From a virus: a DNA stretch of 60,237 nt. Location of the stretch: IMG/VR virus record IMGVR_UViG_3300045110_000134, positions 1-60,237 of that record; one strand, written 5' to 3'. A program made the translations under genes and the position numbers. The stretch's first letter is position 1; each line of letters starts with the position of its first letter. The notes below the pieces were generated by a model that saw only the letters and a list, made by a program, of their open reading frames with translations, was not told the origin of the DNA and did not search any database. Shown here piece after piece: positions 2,549 through 60,237 of this stretch.

Positions 2549-5410
2549 GTGGCACAGAAACCCTACGAGCGAGATCCCGACGCGAAACGGATGCCGTTCC
2601 ACGGCATGAATACTGTGCTGCCTCCGGACAGGTTGCCGGAAGGAAAGTACCCCTTCGCGCAGAACGTACGTGCTTACTTGCGGGATGCCATCCGGCCACG
2701 CGCTATGCAGGATTCCTCGATCGAGACTCTTCCCGGCCCGGTTTATAACATCCGGCGCCTGAACGATACGACCCCGGCCGGCCCCGTGGCAGGGTTCACT
2801 CTTATTGGTGGTGCGGCATCGAACCTCTACGCGGGCGTCGTCCAGGTAGATACCGGCTTTAGTGGCAACCCGCTCGCGATGGTTCCCTTTCGGCCGAATG
2901 CTTCCGTGCAACCTTGGATGTATGTGGGCGACTCGCTCAAAATGGACAAGGTGCGCTCGGACGGGCTCACTTACAAGGTGGGAATTAAGGAACCCCAGAC
3001 CGCACCTACGACAACCGCGGTCCCAGCGTCAGATTCTATTTCACTGATTGGGGCTGTCACTGCAACTTACTGGGGCGATTCCCCGCACTCAGGACCGACC
3101 GGAAACTACATCTGGAAATTCAGGACTGGTGGCGGCTCTGGTCCTATCCGCGCATCAACCGCGCCCAACGGAGTAACTACCGGAAACTCGCTCATCTTCG
3201 ACCAAGGAGCTATTGGGAGCCAGTCTGTCCCGATGGAGTGGACGCAGTACAACGCTTACTCGGGGACGGTCACTACGGCTGTTCCGGGTAACTCGGTTGG
3301 CTGGGTCAGTGGCGACGACTTTACTGGCCTGGTGGCCGGCGACAAGATTGTAATAAACGCTGTCACCTACACCATCGCGGCTTTTCCTCCTCCTACGAAC
3401 ACCGCGCTGCATGTGACAGTTAACCCTGGCACGCAGATTGACGTTCCCTACTCCGCGGCACAGCTTGGGTCAGCCATCCCAGTCTTCACGCCGGCACTCG
3501 AAAGCGAAGGCTACTCAGATTTCAACATGGTGGTGGAGGCGACTCTTTACATCCCGTCTCCGGGAAACTACACACTCAATCTGCAATCGAAGGATGAGGT
3601 TATCTGGGGACTGGGGAGTTCTGGTTCGCATACTCCAACCTGGCCGGCACCGACTGGTGGACAGGTTAAGAGCATTATGGGGCAGACCGTCACCGCACTG
3701 AACGGCTACCCACTCATGCCCAAGACGGTGACTCCGGACGGACAAGGGCAAGTAGACACAGGGAACATCGTTGTGACTTTCCCTGCGGCGGGGAACTATC
3801 CGATCGAGATTGACTACGACTTCTGGTATCACTCGGGCAGAATCCTGGTCATCAAGGAAAACGGAAACTTCATCCCTCCGATTCCTGCCTCGACCATTAC
3901 CGACGCGCAGTACCGCTACACCTATCGTTCCTCGGTCACGGGAGCAGTATCGAATCCTTCGCCGTCCTCGGCTGCGAATGCGCTCTCTGTCCTCTCGAAC
4001 ACAGTTACTCCGGTGCCTTCAACCGATCCCCAGGTAGACAAGATCGATTTCTACCGGAAGGACTCAGGACTGCTGAATTTCACCTATGTGGGCACGGGTC
4101 CAAACTCCGCTACCCCGTTTAAGGACACCCTGCTTGATGCAGACGTAATTGCGAATCCGGTTCTTGAGTTTGACAACTTCGAGCCGTTCCCCTCGATTGA
4201 CCTTCCGCGCAAAGGGATAGTGAATGTGTCCGGAGGAGTGGCGACCTGGGTTTCAGGTGACCAGTTCAACGTGCGCTGGCTGCCGGGTACGATCATCATT
4301 CTCGGGCCAACGTCTCCCACAGCTTCCGCGGTTGCCTACACGCTGAACACGCGCCCGACTTCTACGACGACACTGACGGCAACCAATGAAGAAATTCAAA
4401 ACGGTGTACCTGTTTCTATTCCTCTTGCTGACGGCACGGGCCTTACATACGAGATTGCGGAGCCAATCCTAGCCGCGCAGCCGATGCCGTTTATCTGGGG
4501 ACCGACTGACAACGTAGCGTTCATCTACGGATGTGGCGACCCTCTGCGTCCTGGCGTCCTGTACTGGACGAAAGGAAACAATCCGGACTCTGCTCCCGAC
4601 ACGAACCAGCAGGACGTTACCAGCCCAAGCGAGCCCCTGGTGAACGGCTTGATTGTGGATGGGCTCGGGTGGGTGGCATCTCCGGAGCGGGCCTGGTTAA
4701 TCTATCCCAACTTCTTCAATGCGCTCGCCACTGTGGATGGAACGATCGGTTCAACCTGGACCTTGCAGGAATCCAGCCTGAAGCGCGGCGTCTACATGCC
4801 TTGGGCATTGACCGTGGATGGTGGGCACAACGTTTTCTTCCGCGCCAAGGACGGAATCTACATTTCGCCCTACGGACAGGGCGGGGAGTCAATCACGGAT
4901 GCGGACTTGTTTAATATCTTCCCGCATGAAGGGGCACTCCCGCAGCCGGTTATCCGCGGAGGGTTCGTTGTCTATCCTCCGGACGACAGCAAGCCGGCTT
5001 CGCAGCGACTCAGCACGGGCGGCGGATACTTGTACTACGACTACCAGGACACCTTGGGGACGCAGAGAACCCTGGTGTTCGACATTGCAGGGAAGGGCTG
5101 GGTGTGGGACTTGTACGAGCATCCCGTGGTAACGCACACGGTTGAAGAAGGCGACAACATCAACGGAGTGCTGTGTGGATGCACGGATGGCACAGTGCGG
5201 CCCTTGGCAGACAGCACTTCCGAAAATGCGACTTGCGTTGTGCTGATGCCGTGCGACACTGCAGGAGACGTGCGGAGCCAAAAACACTGGGGCGATTTGT
5301 ACATTGAGGCGAACCCTCCTGATTCGATTGCTACGCAAAGTTCGCTGTTACTCGAAAGCGGGCTTGGCAGCATAGAGCTAGAGGATGGCTCGGGAGTAAT
5401 TCTTTTATAG
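2549..5410 (+). CDS. Large tail-nozzle/stabilisation-like structural protein
   Basis: A 953-residue protein with a GTG start preceded by a GGGAAAGGA ribosome site. The N-terminus (MNTVLPPDRLPEGKYPFAQN) matches the opening of podoviral nozzle proteins of the T7 gp12/P22 gp10 type, where asparagine-rich early residues precede a beta-propeller. Near residues 320-370 a PA14-like beta segment appears (VVEATLYIPSPGNYTLNL). The C-terminal third has propeller-like strands ending in VFFRAKDGIYISPYG and KGWVWDLYEHP. It would close the tail tube and hold fibres. The assignment is by pattern and context; exact homology needs a profile search. Confidence 0.75.
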   Translation: MAQKPYERDPDAKRMPFHGMNTVLPPDRLPEGKYPFAQNVRAYLRDAIRPRAMQDSSIETLPGPVYNIRRLNDTTPAGPVAGFTLIGGAASNLYAGVVQVDTGFSGNPLAMVPFRPNASVQPWMYVGDSLKMDKVRSDGLTYKVGIKEPQTAPTTTAVPASDSISLIGAVTATYWGDSPHSGPTGNYIWKFRTGGGSGPIRASTAPNGVTTGNSLIFDQGAIGSQSVPMEWTQYNAYSGTVTTAVPGNSVGWVSGDDFTGLVAGDKIVINAVTYTIAAFPPPTNTALHVTVNPGTQIDVPYSAAQLGSAIPVFTPALESEGYSDFNMVVEATLYIPSPGNYTLNLQSKDEVIWGLGSSGSHTPTWPAPTGGQVKSIMGQTVTALNGYPLMPKTVTPDGQGQVDTGNIVVTFPAAGNYPIEIDYDFWYHSGRILVIKENGNFIPPIPASTITDAQYRYTYRSSVTGAVSNPSPSSAANALSVLSNTVTPVPSTDPQVDKIDFYRKDSGLLNFTYVGTGPNSATPFKDTLLDADVIANPVLEFDNFEPFPSIDLPRKGIVNVSGGVATWVSGDQFNVRWLPGTIIILGPTSPTASAVAYTLNTRPTSTTTLTATNEEIQNGVPVSIPLADGTGLTYEIAEPILAAQPMPFIWGPTDNVAFIYGCGDPLRPGVLYWTKGNNPDSAPDTNQQDVTSPSEPLVNGLIVDGLGWVASPERAWLIYPNFFNALATVDGTIGSTWTLQESSLKRGVYMPWALTVDGGHNVFFRAKDGIYISPYGQGGESITDADLFNIFPHEGALPQPVIRGGFVVYPPDDSKPASQRLSTGGGYLYYDYQDTLGTQRTLVFDIAGKGWVWDLYEHPVVTHTVEEGDNINGVLCGCTDGTVRPLADSTSENATCVVLMPCDTAGDVRSQKHWGDLYIEANPPDSIATQSSLLLESGLGSIELEDGSGVILL

Positions 5411-31403: not shown

Positions 31404-31432
31404 ACCATGTCATACTAGTATGAACCTGTCAA
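31404..31432 (-). promoter_or_regulatory. Leftward promoter with palindromic operator
   Basis: On the minus strand TTGACA (31427-31432) is followed after 17 bases by a weak -10 (CATGGT, 31404-31409). The spacer is almost filled by the perfect 14-base palindrome TCATACTAGTATGA (31410-31423). A symmetric site between -35 and -10 is a classic repressor position. It would control the DUF932 operon. Confidence 0.5.
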
Positions 31433-31999
31433 GAGAATAATTCGGTAAGCGTTGCTCGAATTTCTCTAGCGCATCTAGAGCGGATTAGGTTCCAAAGCCT
31501 CTCACTAACCTCTAACTAACTTCAACCTCTCCTCCTGGTCACCCGGCTTTACTCCCAGGCGCTTCCACACCTTACTGTGTCCCCACCCTCACACCTTACT
31601 GTGTGTCCCCACCACTCCCCGCCTGGACTCGCCAGAAATCTCTCCCCCAGGTCACCACTCAGCCCTCTGAATCCCTTCCCAGGAATTCAGCAGGACGGTG
31701 CAAACACCTTTTAGAATCAGCCTGTTATTCGCCAGTCGTTGCATTGTCCGTTAATCCGCACCTGATCTGCGGGCGATTGTCCAGTGATCTGCTCTGGGAG
31801 CCTGGGAATAGGCGGCCTATGGTATCAATTCAGGTATCACACAACAGCCAAGTGCAGCACTATCAACAACTGGCGGAGAGGGCGTTATTCTCCTCGCGGC
31901 CTATAGTCGGCCCAGGGAAGTTGTCCGCCCCCCCCTCCCCCCTCCGCGAGCAGTAGCGCATTTCCCCCGCTCTGATTTTACTGATAAAAAATTGAAAAA
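31433..31999. other. Long noncoding spacer, possible origin
   Basis: About 570 bases with no convincing gene on either strand; the longest open frame (31603-31956, plus) has low-complexity Pro/Ser-rich content and no ribosome site. Visible features are two copies of a CACACCTTACTGTGT element, a repeated GCGGCCTAT (31812 and 31896), a C-run near 31929-31946 and an AT-rich stretch at 31973-31999 just before the GGTAACC array. Confidence 0.5.
31566..31604 (+). repeat. Tandem CACACCTTACTGTGT elements
   Basis: The 15-mer occurs at 31566-31580 and 31590-31604, each followed by CCCCACC. CACAC/GTGTG arms make each copy a small hairpin. Possible protein-binding pair. Confidence 0.5.
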
Positions 32000-32067
32000 G
32001 GTAAAGGTAACCAAGGTAACCGAATTAACTTGACAGAGGCAGGGTAACCGGGGTAAACAAGGTAACC
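32000..32067 (+). repeat. GGTAACC repeat array around a TTGACA promoter
   Basis: GGTAACC at 32006, 32015, 32043 and 32061, with variants GGTAAA at 32000 and GGTAAAC at 32052. Within each cluster units are 9 bases apart. A consensus TTGACA (32030-32035) lies between clusters, with a weak -10 near 32054. The last repeat ends one base before the ATG at 32069. This suits a cooperative regulator of the rightward block or replication iterons next to an AT-rich tract. Confidence 0.6.
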
Positions 32068-32068
32068 G

Positions 32069-33372: not shown

Positions 33373-33518
33373 AGGTCATGGAACCGCAAACCTGCAGCAA
33401 GTGTGGCGTGCCTGTGGCCAACATGCGCTATGATGCGGTGCTTGATGTGCTGGTATTCAAGTGCCAGCGCTGCAATTACGAGTGGATCGTCCCACCTCTG
33501 AAAAAGGGCAAGCCATGA
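33369..33518 (+). CDS. Zinc-ribbon protein
   Basis: A 49-residue protein with GTG start in a GTGA overlap. CSKC (residues 9-12) and CQRC (32-35) around a short sheet make a zinc ribbon. Ends by ATGA overlap with the next gene. Confidence 0.65.
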   Translation: MKVMEPQTCSKCGVPVANMRYDAVLDVLVFKCQRCNYEWIVPPLKKGKP

Positions 33519-34018
33519 GCATCTTTGCCTTCATCTGCAAGCACTGCGGACCCAGCGAGAAACCCTGCGAGCACGCAATGGAGTTGATCGAGTTAAAGTT
33601 CCTGCGTGATCTACAGGAAGACATGCGGCATTGCTGCAAGCTGGTGGAAGCGATGCTGCTCGAAATTCTTCATAGGCTACCTGTCCCCAAGTCGGCCACA
33701 CTCAGGTTGATTTCTGGAGGCACCATGCCAGCAACAATCCTTGTAGGCGGAACAGCGAATTCACTGTTCCAAGAGTGGACAGGTCCGAACGGCACAGGAA
33801 CAGTGGTTCCGAATGCTGGCGCACCTGCCTTCGTGTCCGATAACCCGGCTGTCGCTACCGTGGACCCGTCAACCGGGGTAGCGACCGGAGTAAGCGCGGG
33901 AGTTGCCAACATCACTGGAACCGATCCGGTTAACAGTCTCACGGCCACGGACGTACTGACGGTGAATGCGGTCGCGCAGCCGGCTGTGAGTGCGACGTTG
34001 ACCTTAACCCCAAACTAG
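33515..34018 (+). CDS. Zinc/helical N-terminus fused to Ig-like domain
   Basis: A 167-residue frame. Residues 1-68 contain FICKHCGPSEKPCEHA and a long helix. Residues 71-167 form a BIG2-type Ig domain (PAFVSDNPAVATVDPSTGVA, then GVSAGVANITGTDPVN). An in-frame ATG at 33725 (MPATILVGGTAN) has GGAGG 4 bases upstream, so the Ig domain is probably also, or only, made as a separate ~97-residue protein. Such lone Ig domains often decorate capsids. Compare the lone Ig gene at 25728-25967. Confidence 0.65.
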   Translation: MSIFAFICKHCGPSEKPCEHAMELIELKFLRDLQEDMRHCCKLVEAMLLEILHRLPVPKSATLRLISGGTMPATILVGGTANSLFQEWTGPNGTGTVVPNAGAPAFVSDNPAVATVDPSTGVATGVSAGVANITGTDPVNSLTATDVLTVNAVAQPAVSATLTLTPN

Positions 34019-34032
34019 TTGAGGGTGCGGAC

Positions 34033-34101
34033 ATGGCGACAGTAGAACAGCGCTTGGATTCTTTGGAATCCCGGCTCGCGAAACTGGAAGCCGCACCCTG
34101 A
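34033..34101 (+). CDS. 22-residue coiled-coil peptide
   Basis: MATVEQRLDSLESRLAKLEA followed by AP, with GAGGG 8 bases upstream. A perfect short heptad pattern. Real or not is uncertain, but the ribosome site and heptads are better than chance would suggest. Confidence 0.4.
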   Translation: MATVEQRLDSLESRLAKLEAAP

Positions 34102-34142
34102 AAATACTTAAACCCTAAACTGAAGCTGTATACCCTAGGGTT

Positions 34143-34329
34143 GCGGGAGGGGGAAATGAGACGAAGTGCCAACCTGGACGGTACTCGGATTCTCCTCCCG
34201 CCGTGCGATTGAAGACTCCATGCAGTGAGGGGAAGACCTCGTAAGGACTGGGAGCGAAGCGAGAGTCTTCCTAAGCGCTGTACGCGAATAAGCGAGCAGG
34301 CTGAGATGGCACCCTTACTGCACGCTCCC
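34143..34329 (+). ncRNA. Candidate structured RNA with pseudoknot
   Basis: A 245-base gap between genes folds into long helices. P1: 34143-34154 with 34190-34201 (12 pairs, two G-U) enclosing a 5-pair hairpin (166-170/180-184). P2: 34222-34231 with 34312-34321 (10 pairs, one G-U). Inside P2: P3 34231-34241 with 34260-34271 (11 pairs, one bulge; its first pair competes with P2) and P4 34278-34299. The P3 loop GGGAGCG (34250-34256) matches CGCTCCC (34323-34329), a 7-pair pseudoknot. Upstream is a palindrome ACCCTAGGGT (34132-34141). No coding frame fits. No known RNA family is recognised; a cis element for the next gene or a free RNA are both possible. Confidence 0.6.
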
Positions 34330-34346
34330 GGTTTTCTGGACAAACT

Positions 34347-34667
34347 ATGAAACCTATATTCTATGTACTCTGGCTCCCGTTCCTGATGGCATCCGCGCTT
34401 TGGCTGTCGAGCCAGTCGAAAGACGTCAAACCCACCCTCACCGACCAACAGAAGCTAGAAATAAGGAGTGCCCAGGTCCAGTTATACCAGGCTAAGGAAG
34501 TGTTGGAGTCTACCCCCCAGTTCAAAGCGTTCCAGAACGCGCAGAACCATTTGAACGAAACTGCTCTGCGGATTCAGCGCGAATCGAAGGTTGATCCGAA
34601 GCAGTGGACCCTGGGACAGGATCTTGAGTACGTGGCCGTCCCACAACCAGCACCGGAGAAAAAATAA
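34347..34667 (+). CDS. Exported or membrane-anchored helical protein
   Basis: A 106-residue protein. Residues 1-22 (MKPIFYVLWLPFLMASALWL) form a signal peptide or anchor; the rest is a charged helix (QQKLEIRSAQVQLYQAKEVL) facing the periplasm. It resembles signal-anchored helical proteins in soil phages, broadly like an inner spanin, but is far from the lysis genes. The ribosome site is weak, so the structured RNA directly upstream might govern its translation. Confidence 0.6.
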   Translation: MKPIFYVLWLPFLMASALWLSSQSKDVKPTLTDQQKLEIRSAQVQLYQAKEVLESTPQFKAFQNAQNHLNETALRIQRESKVDPKQWTLGQDLEYVAVPQPAPEKK

Positions 34668-34894
34668 TGCCACCATCTGCATTTACCGATGAGCAAATTG
34701 ACGAGATGTTCACCTACCACAACGATCCTGCCAAGCTGCCGCACTACCAGGCCGTGAATGATGCAGCTAAGGCACTGTTTCGGACCATACAGGAACACTG
34801 TCCAGCTTCCCCTGATCGCTCCGCAGCTTTCCGCCTGGTTCGCGAGGCCCGCATGACAGCCAACGCAGCCATTGCGTTAGACGGGAAATACTAA
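34667..34894 (+). CDS. Acb2/Tad1-like hairpin-domain protein (anti-CBASS/anti-Thoeris candidate)
   Basis: A 75-residue all-helical protein. The pattern DEMFTYH (residues ~11-17), Y-x-x-V-x-x-A-A-K-A-L, I-Q-E-H-C-P-A-S, and the C-terminal A-R-M-T-A-N-A-A-I-A-L fits the Acb2 family (F-x-Y-H ... A-A-K-x-L-A ... C-P ... M-x-A-N-A-A-I-A). Acb2 binds cyclic di- and trinucleotides made by CBASS, and related Tad1 binds Thoeris signals, blocking host suicide responses. Small size and stop-start overlap fit. Binding here is inferred from family; key residues should be checked by structure. Confidence 0.75.
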   Translation: MPPSAFTDEQIDEMFTYHNDPAKLPHYQAVNDAAKALFRTIQEHCPASPDRSAAFRLVREARMTANAAIALDGKY

Positions 34895-35274
34895 TGAACA
34901 TCGAACAAGTGGCCCGTATCGCGCACGAAACCAACCGCGCTTACTGCGCCTCGATCGGGGACTACAGCCAACCCTTGTGGGAGGACGCTCCGGAGTGGCA
35001 GAAGAGCTCCGCGCTCAAGGGAGTCAATTTCCATCTCGACATTCTGGAGAAGGGCTCTCTTCCTTCGCCGGCAGCGAGCCATGAGTCCTGGCTGCGAGAG
35101 AAGAAGGCGCAGGGTTGGAAGTACGGCAAGGAAAAAAATCCAGAGAAGAAAGAGCATCCCTGCTGCGTTCCCTACGATGAGCTCCCACCAGAGCAGCGCA
35201 TGAAGGATTTTCTGTTCTTAGCCATTGTTGAGGCGTTTTACGCAGCAGAAGCCAAGACCACGGTGGTGCGCTGA
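34894..35274 (+). CDS. RyR-domain protein
   Basis: A 126-residue protein matching the ryanodine-receptor-type repeat: VARIAHETNRAYCASIGDYS, PEWQKSSALKGVNFHL, SHESWLREKKAQGWKYGKEK, and KKEHPCCVPYDELPPEQRMK. RyR domains occur in many phages; their ligand is not established, though links to nucleotide-derived signalling have been proposed. Its position directly behind the Acb2-like gene hints at a shared counter-defence role, which is inference. Confidence 0.85.
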   Translation: MNIEQVARIAHETNRAYCASIGDYSQPLWEDAPEWQKSSALKGVNFHLDILEKGSLPSPAASHESWLREKKAQGWKYGKEKNPEKKEHPCCVPYDELPPEQRMKDFLFLAIVEAFYAAEAKTTVVR

Positions 35275-60098: not shown

Positions 60099-60237
60099 GT
60101 TTTATAGGTTTTCTGAAAACAGTAGGACGTGATTTCAAGAAGGGTCTGAACTTTATCCTTCCGTGGGCAGAAGGCGCTGGCGAAGTAGCGGTGCGCCTCT
60201 TTGCTCCTAGCCTTGGGCCGTTGTTTAACTCAACCGT
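60095..60237 (+). CDS. Small protein across the genome join (5' part)
   Basis: The start (ATG 60095, ATGA overlap with the endolysin stop) and first part of the gene that continues at base 1. Bases 60111-60237 duplicate 1-127, so the true gene is 60095-60110 followed by 1-365 (126 residues). Not a separate gene. Confidence 0.85.
   Translation, partial: MSFIGFLKTVGRDFKKGLNFILPWAEGAGEVAVRLFAPSLGPLFNST
60111..60237. repeat. Right copy of 127-bp terminal direct repeat
   Basis: Identical to bases 1-127; marks the point where the circle closes. Confidence 0.95.

Follow-up and report, generated by a model that had tools for sequence, protein, structure and literature searches.

We found that the + strand of positions 34221-34329 of the window (the whole stretch of DNA that was analysed, 60,237 bases, virus record IMGVR_UViG_3300045110_000134) is, as read from its sequence, a structured RNA with a long closing helix (P1), a bulged second helix (P2), a short third helix (P3) and a 7-bp pseudoknot. 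To judge from our searches it is an undescribed RNA with two known copies, the second being in a related phage (IMG/VR 3300049927_000079, IMGVR_UViG_3300049927_000079, locus L014). The decisive evidence that the RNA is real is that this relative keeps P1, P2 and the pseudoknot with compensatory changes. We tentatively propose, with a probability of about 40%, that it is an intercistronic cis-acting RNA which regulates or couples the translation of the ORF that follows.

Genome and gene neighbourhood

The window begins and ends with a direct terminal repeat of 127 bases (1-127 = 60111-60237), and thus the record resembles a complete, circularly assembled phage genome. The nearest annotated terminases are those of the Tunturiibacter phages Tunturi_1 and 2 (described in PMC11924767), with which the window terminase is 28.5% identical, and these relatives make an Acidobacteriota host likely for the window phage.

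The RNA lies in a run of + strand genes, which comprises a gene with a bacterial Ig-like domain (33518..34018; Pfam Big_2 at 23.2 bits, cut-off 22.8), the RNA itself, an ORF of 106 aa (34347..34667), an Acb2/Tad1 hairpin-domain protein (34667-34894; Pfam PF24729 at 33.1 bits, cut-off 27), a RyR-domain protein directly after it (34894-35274), and the terminase (from 36694). A 22-codon ORF (MATVEQRLDSLESRLAKLEAAP, 34033..34101, +), with an anti-Shine-Dalgarno (anti-SD) energy of -6.2, follows the Ig-like gene and is not conserved. The first-pass annotation had placed the RNA between a chain of early small genes and an Acb2-like gene; the Pfam match bears out what that gene is, but the 106-aa ORF lies in between, so that the Acb2-like gene is the second after the RNA. 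Its product is likely a nucleotide sponge against CBASS or Thoeris defence, and the gene has relatives in more than 100 IMG/VR contigs. Further upstream, about 660 bases (31409-32068) separate divergent gene blocks; scans for sigma-70-like promoters and terminators gave no match there, and this stretch may be the transcription start region, possibly with another type of signal.

Fold of the RNA in the window

P1 joins TGCAGTGAGGG (34221..34231) to CCCTTACTGCA (34312..34322) and is a helix of 10 pairs, or of 11 pairs when an extra T-A is included, and P2 joins GAAGACCTC (34232..34240) to GAGAGTCTTC (34261..34270) with A34264 bulged. The pseudoknot 5' strand GGGAGCG (34250..34256) is located in the P2 loop and is the exact complement of CGCTCCC (34323..34329), the 3' strand directly after P1. 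The helix order is P1, P2, PK, P2', P3, P1', PK', with 0-1 nt separating P1' from PK'. The 12-pair, 10-pair and bulged 11-pair helices that had been noticed at first reading are all present in the sequence, as is the GGGAGCG/CGCTCCC complement; the bulged helix pairs 34231-34240 with 34261-34271 (bulge A34264), and G34231 could pair in either of two helices. P3 is minimal, with three invariant pairs in the RNAalifold consensus (34277..34279 with 34295..34297), no covariation and an uncertain register, which a CGCT/AGCG alternative overlaps. Before the P1 3' strand lies a conserved unpaired stretch (34304..34311, the GATGGCAC region; aGAyGGCACC is common to the window and L014). A possible outer helix, P0, would pair GAAGAC (34211..34216), which overlaps the stop codon of an 18-codon ORF, with GTTTTC (34331..34336) in the U-rich stretch before the ATG.

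Folding statistics favoured the + strand. A 261-base stretch of this strand had a folding z of -2.95 (1 of 200 shuffles as good), against -1.0 for its - strand, and the 120 bases at 34221-34340 reached z = -4.7, a value that none of the 201 tiles covering the window attained (the lowest was -2.9). Across the phage DNA that was fetched, an equivalent layout, with a helix of 10 or more pairs and an interleaved pseudoknot of 7 bp, occurred 1.9 times per Mb of strand, which for a gap as long as the one here amounts to about 5e-4. The original statement that such helices are not expected by chance therefore stands to the extent that the layout is rare, but chance occurrence is possible at this frequency; indeed, a permissive descriptor search gave 743 overlapping matches, which shows that chance often produces looser forms of the layout.

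Compensatory changes in the related phage

The terminase of the related phage is 88% identical to that of the window, and the same RNA is located at L014 3928-4053, where it is likewise flanked by the Ig-like gene and the ORF that follows. The two RNAs are 66% identical over 139 aligned positions, whereas identity is 82% in the aligned coding DNA just downstream (the Acb2-like gene and the first part of the RyR gene); on this comparison the RNA diverges faster in sequence than its coding neighbours, yet its pairs are retained. Only P1, P2, the pseudoknot and the minimal 3-bp P3 are common to both copies, between which there are a 2-nt gap and a 19-nt insertion.

Covariation had been named beforehand as the check to make, and the relative provided six pairs changed on both sides: four in P1, one in P2 and one in the pseudoknot (n=2 sequences). 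All 11 P1 pairs are kept in L014, and the four that vary are each altered in both partners (A-U to G-C, G-U to C-G, A-U to C-G, and G-C to A-U; null p 2e-4, where the null holds the L014 5' strand fixed and scatters an equal number of random changes over the 3' strand). P2 keeps 9/9 pairs, with one double and three single changes (null p 0.012), and the pseudoknot keeps 6/7 (GGGCGC/GCGCCC), with one A-U to C-G double change and one end pair lost, a covariation that is weak alone (p ~0.2). P0, with 6/6 pairs in the window and 5/6 in L014, two of them double changes (null p 0.05), is suggestive only. Overall, 98% of cells were paired, against 35-53% with the partners slid by 1-3 columns. The RNAalifold consensus was -31.8 kcal/mol, whereas column shuffles gave -15.8 +/- 3.5 (z -4.6, 0/1,000 as low); the reverse strand was weaker (z -2.8). 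With two sequences, too few for R-scape, we consider P1 well supported, P2 fairly and the pseudoknot moderately, as far as comparison of sequences goes.

The reading in which there is no functional RNA, and chance folding and inherited sequence similarity account for the pattern, draws on the number of sequences (two), on the weak pseudoknot covariation (p 0.2) and on comparable layouts at about 1.9 per Mb of strand. The compensation of 4/4 variable P1 pairs (p 2e-4), the P2 value (p 0.012), the consensus energy that none of 1000 shuffles reached and the position of the region as the best-folding 120-base tile of the window speak against it, and we regard it as extremely unlikely. A conserved coding frame, which had been named as a possible refutation, was also looked for. 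The protein-coding reading of a 41-aa ORF (34225-34350) was rejected: the same frame is closed in L014 by a TAA at 4026-4028, and its best-aligned stretch had, by hand count, five non-synonymous changes against one synonymous. The reading frame is thus not conserved, and the RNA region is not a gene.

The 5' part and the 18-codon ORF

The first-pass annotation had proposed one five-helix RNA over 34111-34330. Its 3' half is what we retain (34221-34329, with compensatory changes and the alifold z of -4.6); that the 5' half belongs to the conserved RNA was rejected, since it had no homologue anywhere searched. Indeed, 34111-34207 has no counterpart in L014 or in any of the records searched, and in L014 the RNA begins directly after the stop codon of the Ig-like gene. 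Two helices occur in this part, both in the window only: an AACCCTA/TAGGGTT helix (34111-34117 with 34136-34142) and the 12-pair helix (34143..34154 with TTCTCCTCCCGC, 34190..34201), in which 2/12 pairs are G-U. The 5' part had z = -2.8, falling to only -1.7 for the 120-base tile 34094-34213.

The 18-codon ORF (MRRSANLDGTRILLPPCD, 34156..34212, +) ends 8 nt before P1 and has no homologue and no conservation. Its anti-SD energy of -10.8 kcal/mol ranked third in strength among the 43 starts examined, a level that 0.5% of random sites attain, and this strong Shine-Dalgarno sequence, which lies in the 5' strand of the 12-pair helix, is buried by that helix through pairing with the ORF's own codons 12-16. 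Because the 5' half is present in no relative and the 12-pair helix holds the Shine-Dalgarno sequence of the 18-codon ORF, this half is unproven as a part of the RNA. The ORF may be a leader peptide or may have arisen by chance, between which one copy cannot decide. The motif GGGAG/CTCCC is present both in the 12-pair helix and in the pseudoknot, so that an exchange of partners would be possible in principle.

Searches for known families and further copies

Rfam 15 (4,227 models) gave no match at gathering over the window. At E<=10 the window copy matched only two eukaryotic snoRNA models, far below gathering, and the L014 copy matched none, which agrees with the earlier impression that the RNA belongs to no known family. 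DNA similarity searches of phage and plasmid records returned only chance matches of 20-40 bases. Three stricter motif combinations scanned over IMG/VR returned only L014 and chance matches, which were rejected by eye and with the covariance model R1; the loosest of the four combinations had chance matches among the matches listed. Partial matches at L189, L181, L046, L204 and L008 were judged to be chance. The relatives found via the Ig-like protein, the 106-aa protein and the terminase (L002, L003, L216-L228) have no such RNA after the Ig-like gene. With model R1 no third copy came up, either in 99 other phage records (Tunturi_1 among them) or in a sample of about 1,190 bacterial genomes from three phyla (for the latter a weak negative, with strict filters and few candidates per genome), and neither the window nor the L014 genome has a further copy elsewhere.

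These searches bear on two other readings. A ligand-binding riboswitch, or an operator for a phage or ribosomal protein (as gp32 on its own leader), would control the next ORF, and a three-way junction with a loop-tail pseudoknot beside a start codon is typical of such RNAs, as are conserved unpaired bases (GCGAAGCG, CTAA and GAyGGCACC). However, no Rfam riboswitch or leader matched even at E<=10, widespread riboswitches occur in hosts whereas the sampled bacterial genomes held no copy, and the downstream ORFs differ and have no Pfam-assigned function; we consider this reading rather unlikely. Interleaving of helices is a common feature of small ribozymes, and several ribozyme classes occur in phages, which would suit a self-cleaving ribozyme or, as a related proposal, an element for RNase processing or mRNA stability. 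The HDV-like order is P1 5', P2 5', P3, P1 3', P4, P2 3' (a nested double pseudoknot), and the observed P1-P2-PK-P2'-P3-P1'-PK' is not of this kind, as had been noted at first reading. Given that no Rfam ribozyme model matched at E<=10 and that no known catalytic core was recognised, a ribozyme or processing element is very unlikely.

Spacing and the next start codon

The distance from the end of the pseudoknot to the AUG is 17 nt in the window and 16 nt in L014, and that from the upstream stop to P1 is 8 nt in the window (18-codon ORF) and 10 nt in L014 (Ig-like gene). Both spacings are conserved though both neighbouring ORFs differ between the phages. The RNA-linked start belongs in the window to the 106-aa protein, which by eye has a signal-peptide-like N-terminus and for which Pfam gave no match above cut-off and PHROG none better than E 0.05; in L014 it belongs to another ORF, which is followed by the 106-aa homologue (L014:4439-4744, 57% identical). 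That extra ORF (L014:4070-4405) has no Pfam match, and its N-terminus also resembles a signal peptide. The bases around the AUG, CAAACTATGAAA, are identical in both copies, and the conserved block spans the AUG and the first codon.

The start at 34347 has no Shine-Dalgarno sequence. Anti-SD energies at the RNA-linked starts were -3.0 (window) and -2.7 (L014), against a random median of -2.9, and most of the 43 window starts examined had a stronger signal; five of the 43 (34347 included) were equally weak, so that a missing Shine-Dalgarno signal is not rare. Starts of the 106-aa homologue and of look-alike genes with no RNA in front had better signals, which speaks for cis control: -4.3 at L014:4439, -5.0 or -6.1 in L003, and -8.3 in L216, where the L003 and L216 genes were likened to the 106-aa gene by eye only. 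Scans at the RNA found no sigma-70-like promoter and, in both copies, no intrinsic terminator (a G+C-rich hairpin followed directly by at least 5 U in 8 bases), which also favours control in cis.

The main rival is transcription attenuation or antitermination, in which RNA polymerase would be paused, stopped or protected by the fold, or by a competing fold, after the early small genes and before the terminase and structural genes. It owes this place to a CCC-NN-TTTT after the pseudoknot 3' strand, kept in both copies, and to a relative, L224, with a strong intrinsic terminator in the same place after the Ig-like gene (3381-3407; an 11-pair stem, TTTTTATT); the RNA also lies upstream of the terminase within one + strand gene run. 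A promoter-like site is located just downstream of the L224 terminator. On the other hand, the U run here is only four long and stands behind a pseudoknot strand rather than a simple hairpin, the terminator scan was negative at both copies, and the fixed AUG distance and the missing Shine-Dalgarno signal would be left unexplained, so that we rate this rival as unlikely.

A trans-acting or structural phage RNA (a small RNA, a ribonucleoprotein scaffold or a packaging RNA), processed from the operon mRNA, would suit a fold that is compact and self-contained, lies 2.3 kb before the terminase and stays while the surrounding ORFs differ between the two phages. However, neither a promoter nor a terminator was matched, neither genome has the RNA at a second place, and the conserved block runs through the AUG and first codon, an extension needless for a free RNA; this reading is distinctly unlikely.

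Proposed role in translation of the next ORF

The conserved spacings, the missing Shine-Dalgarno signal and the retained fold fit best with cis control of the next AUG. In this proposal the 34221-34329 (+) RNA would act as a cis-acting element within the polycistronic phage mRNA: P1 would close a three-way junction whose other arms are P2 and P3, and pairing of the loop of P2 just past P1 would yield a compact pseudoknotted fold that controls initiation at the next AUG. The likeliest route would be translational coupling, in which the spacer is folded away and the upstream stop is brought beside the downstream start, with a weak outer P0 holding the U-rich bases before the AUG until it is opened by a terminating ribosome. 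Against the proposal, the upstream ORF differs (the 18-codon ORF in the window and the Ig-like gene in L014), the RNA has two members (n=2), and P0 is marginal (p 0.05) with one pair lost in L014. In its strongest form, that the fold lets terminating ribosomes reinitiate without a Shine-Dalgarno sequence across a spacer of 130-150 nt, with stop and start side by side, as a new phage RNA class, the proposal is improbable. It would be premature to take it that the fold recruits ribosomes directly, since a dicistrovirus IRES in E. coli does not need its fold for translation, which runs via protein S1 and an SD-like element (PMC9458429).

Comparison with known systems

In general kind, the RNA resembles a pseudoknotted cis-regulatory RNA upstream of a start codon, in that helices and a pseudoknot are conserved at a fixed distance from the AUG (n=2). 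The closest described analogue in kind is the gene 32 leader pseudoknot of T4, T2 and RB69 (PMC3014915), an autogenous translational operator and likewise a phage mRNA pseudoknot upstream of a start codon, which there acts on translation. In gene 32 the pseudoknot is of a simple type and sits 67 nt ahead of the AUG, with an A+U-rich stretch behind it, and the gene that it precedes encodes a single-strand-binding protein; unlike it, the RNA here has a three-way junction, a spacing of 16-17 nt and an unrelated ORF downstream, and where the gene 32 operator is followed by the gene of its binding protein, the 106-aa ORF here has no Pfam or PHROG match. The E. coli rpsO (S15) translational operator also contains a pseudoknot (PMC3014915), but we found no sequence match to it and no ribosomal protein gene downstream. 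The L224 terminator shares the genomic place and a structure followed by U residues, and differs in that the last helix here is a pseudoknot strand with a U run of four and a negative terminator scan. GOLLD and ROOL are several times longer and have Rfam models of their own, and the RNA here matches neither. Both are structured bacterial or phage-associated RNAs, with structures given in PMC12286853.

Taken at this strength, the finding is of an undescribed structured RNA in soil phages of a little-studied group, the closest relatives with annotation being phages of Acidobacteriota, and translation-acting pseudoknots in phage mRNAs are rare in the literature. The natural contrast between a start with the RNA and no Shine-Dalgarno sequence and a start with a Shine-Dalgarno sequence and no RNA offers a simple reporter test. 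If the coupling model is true, it would represent a new way of linking the expression of adjacent phage genes.
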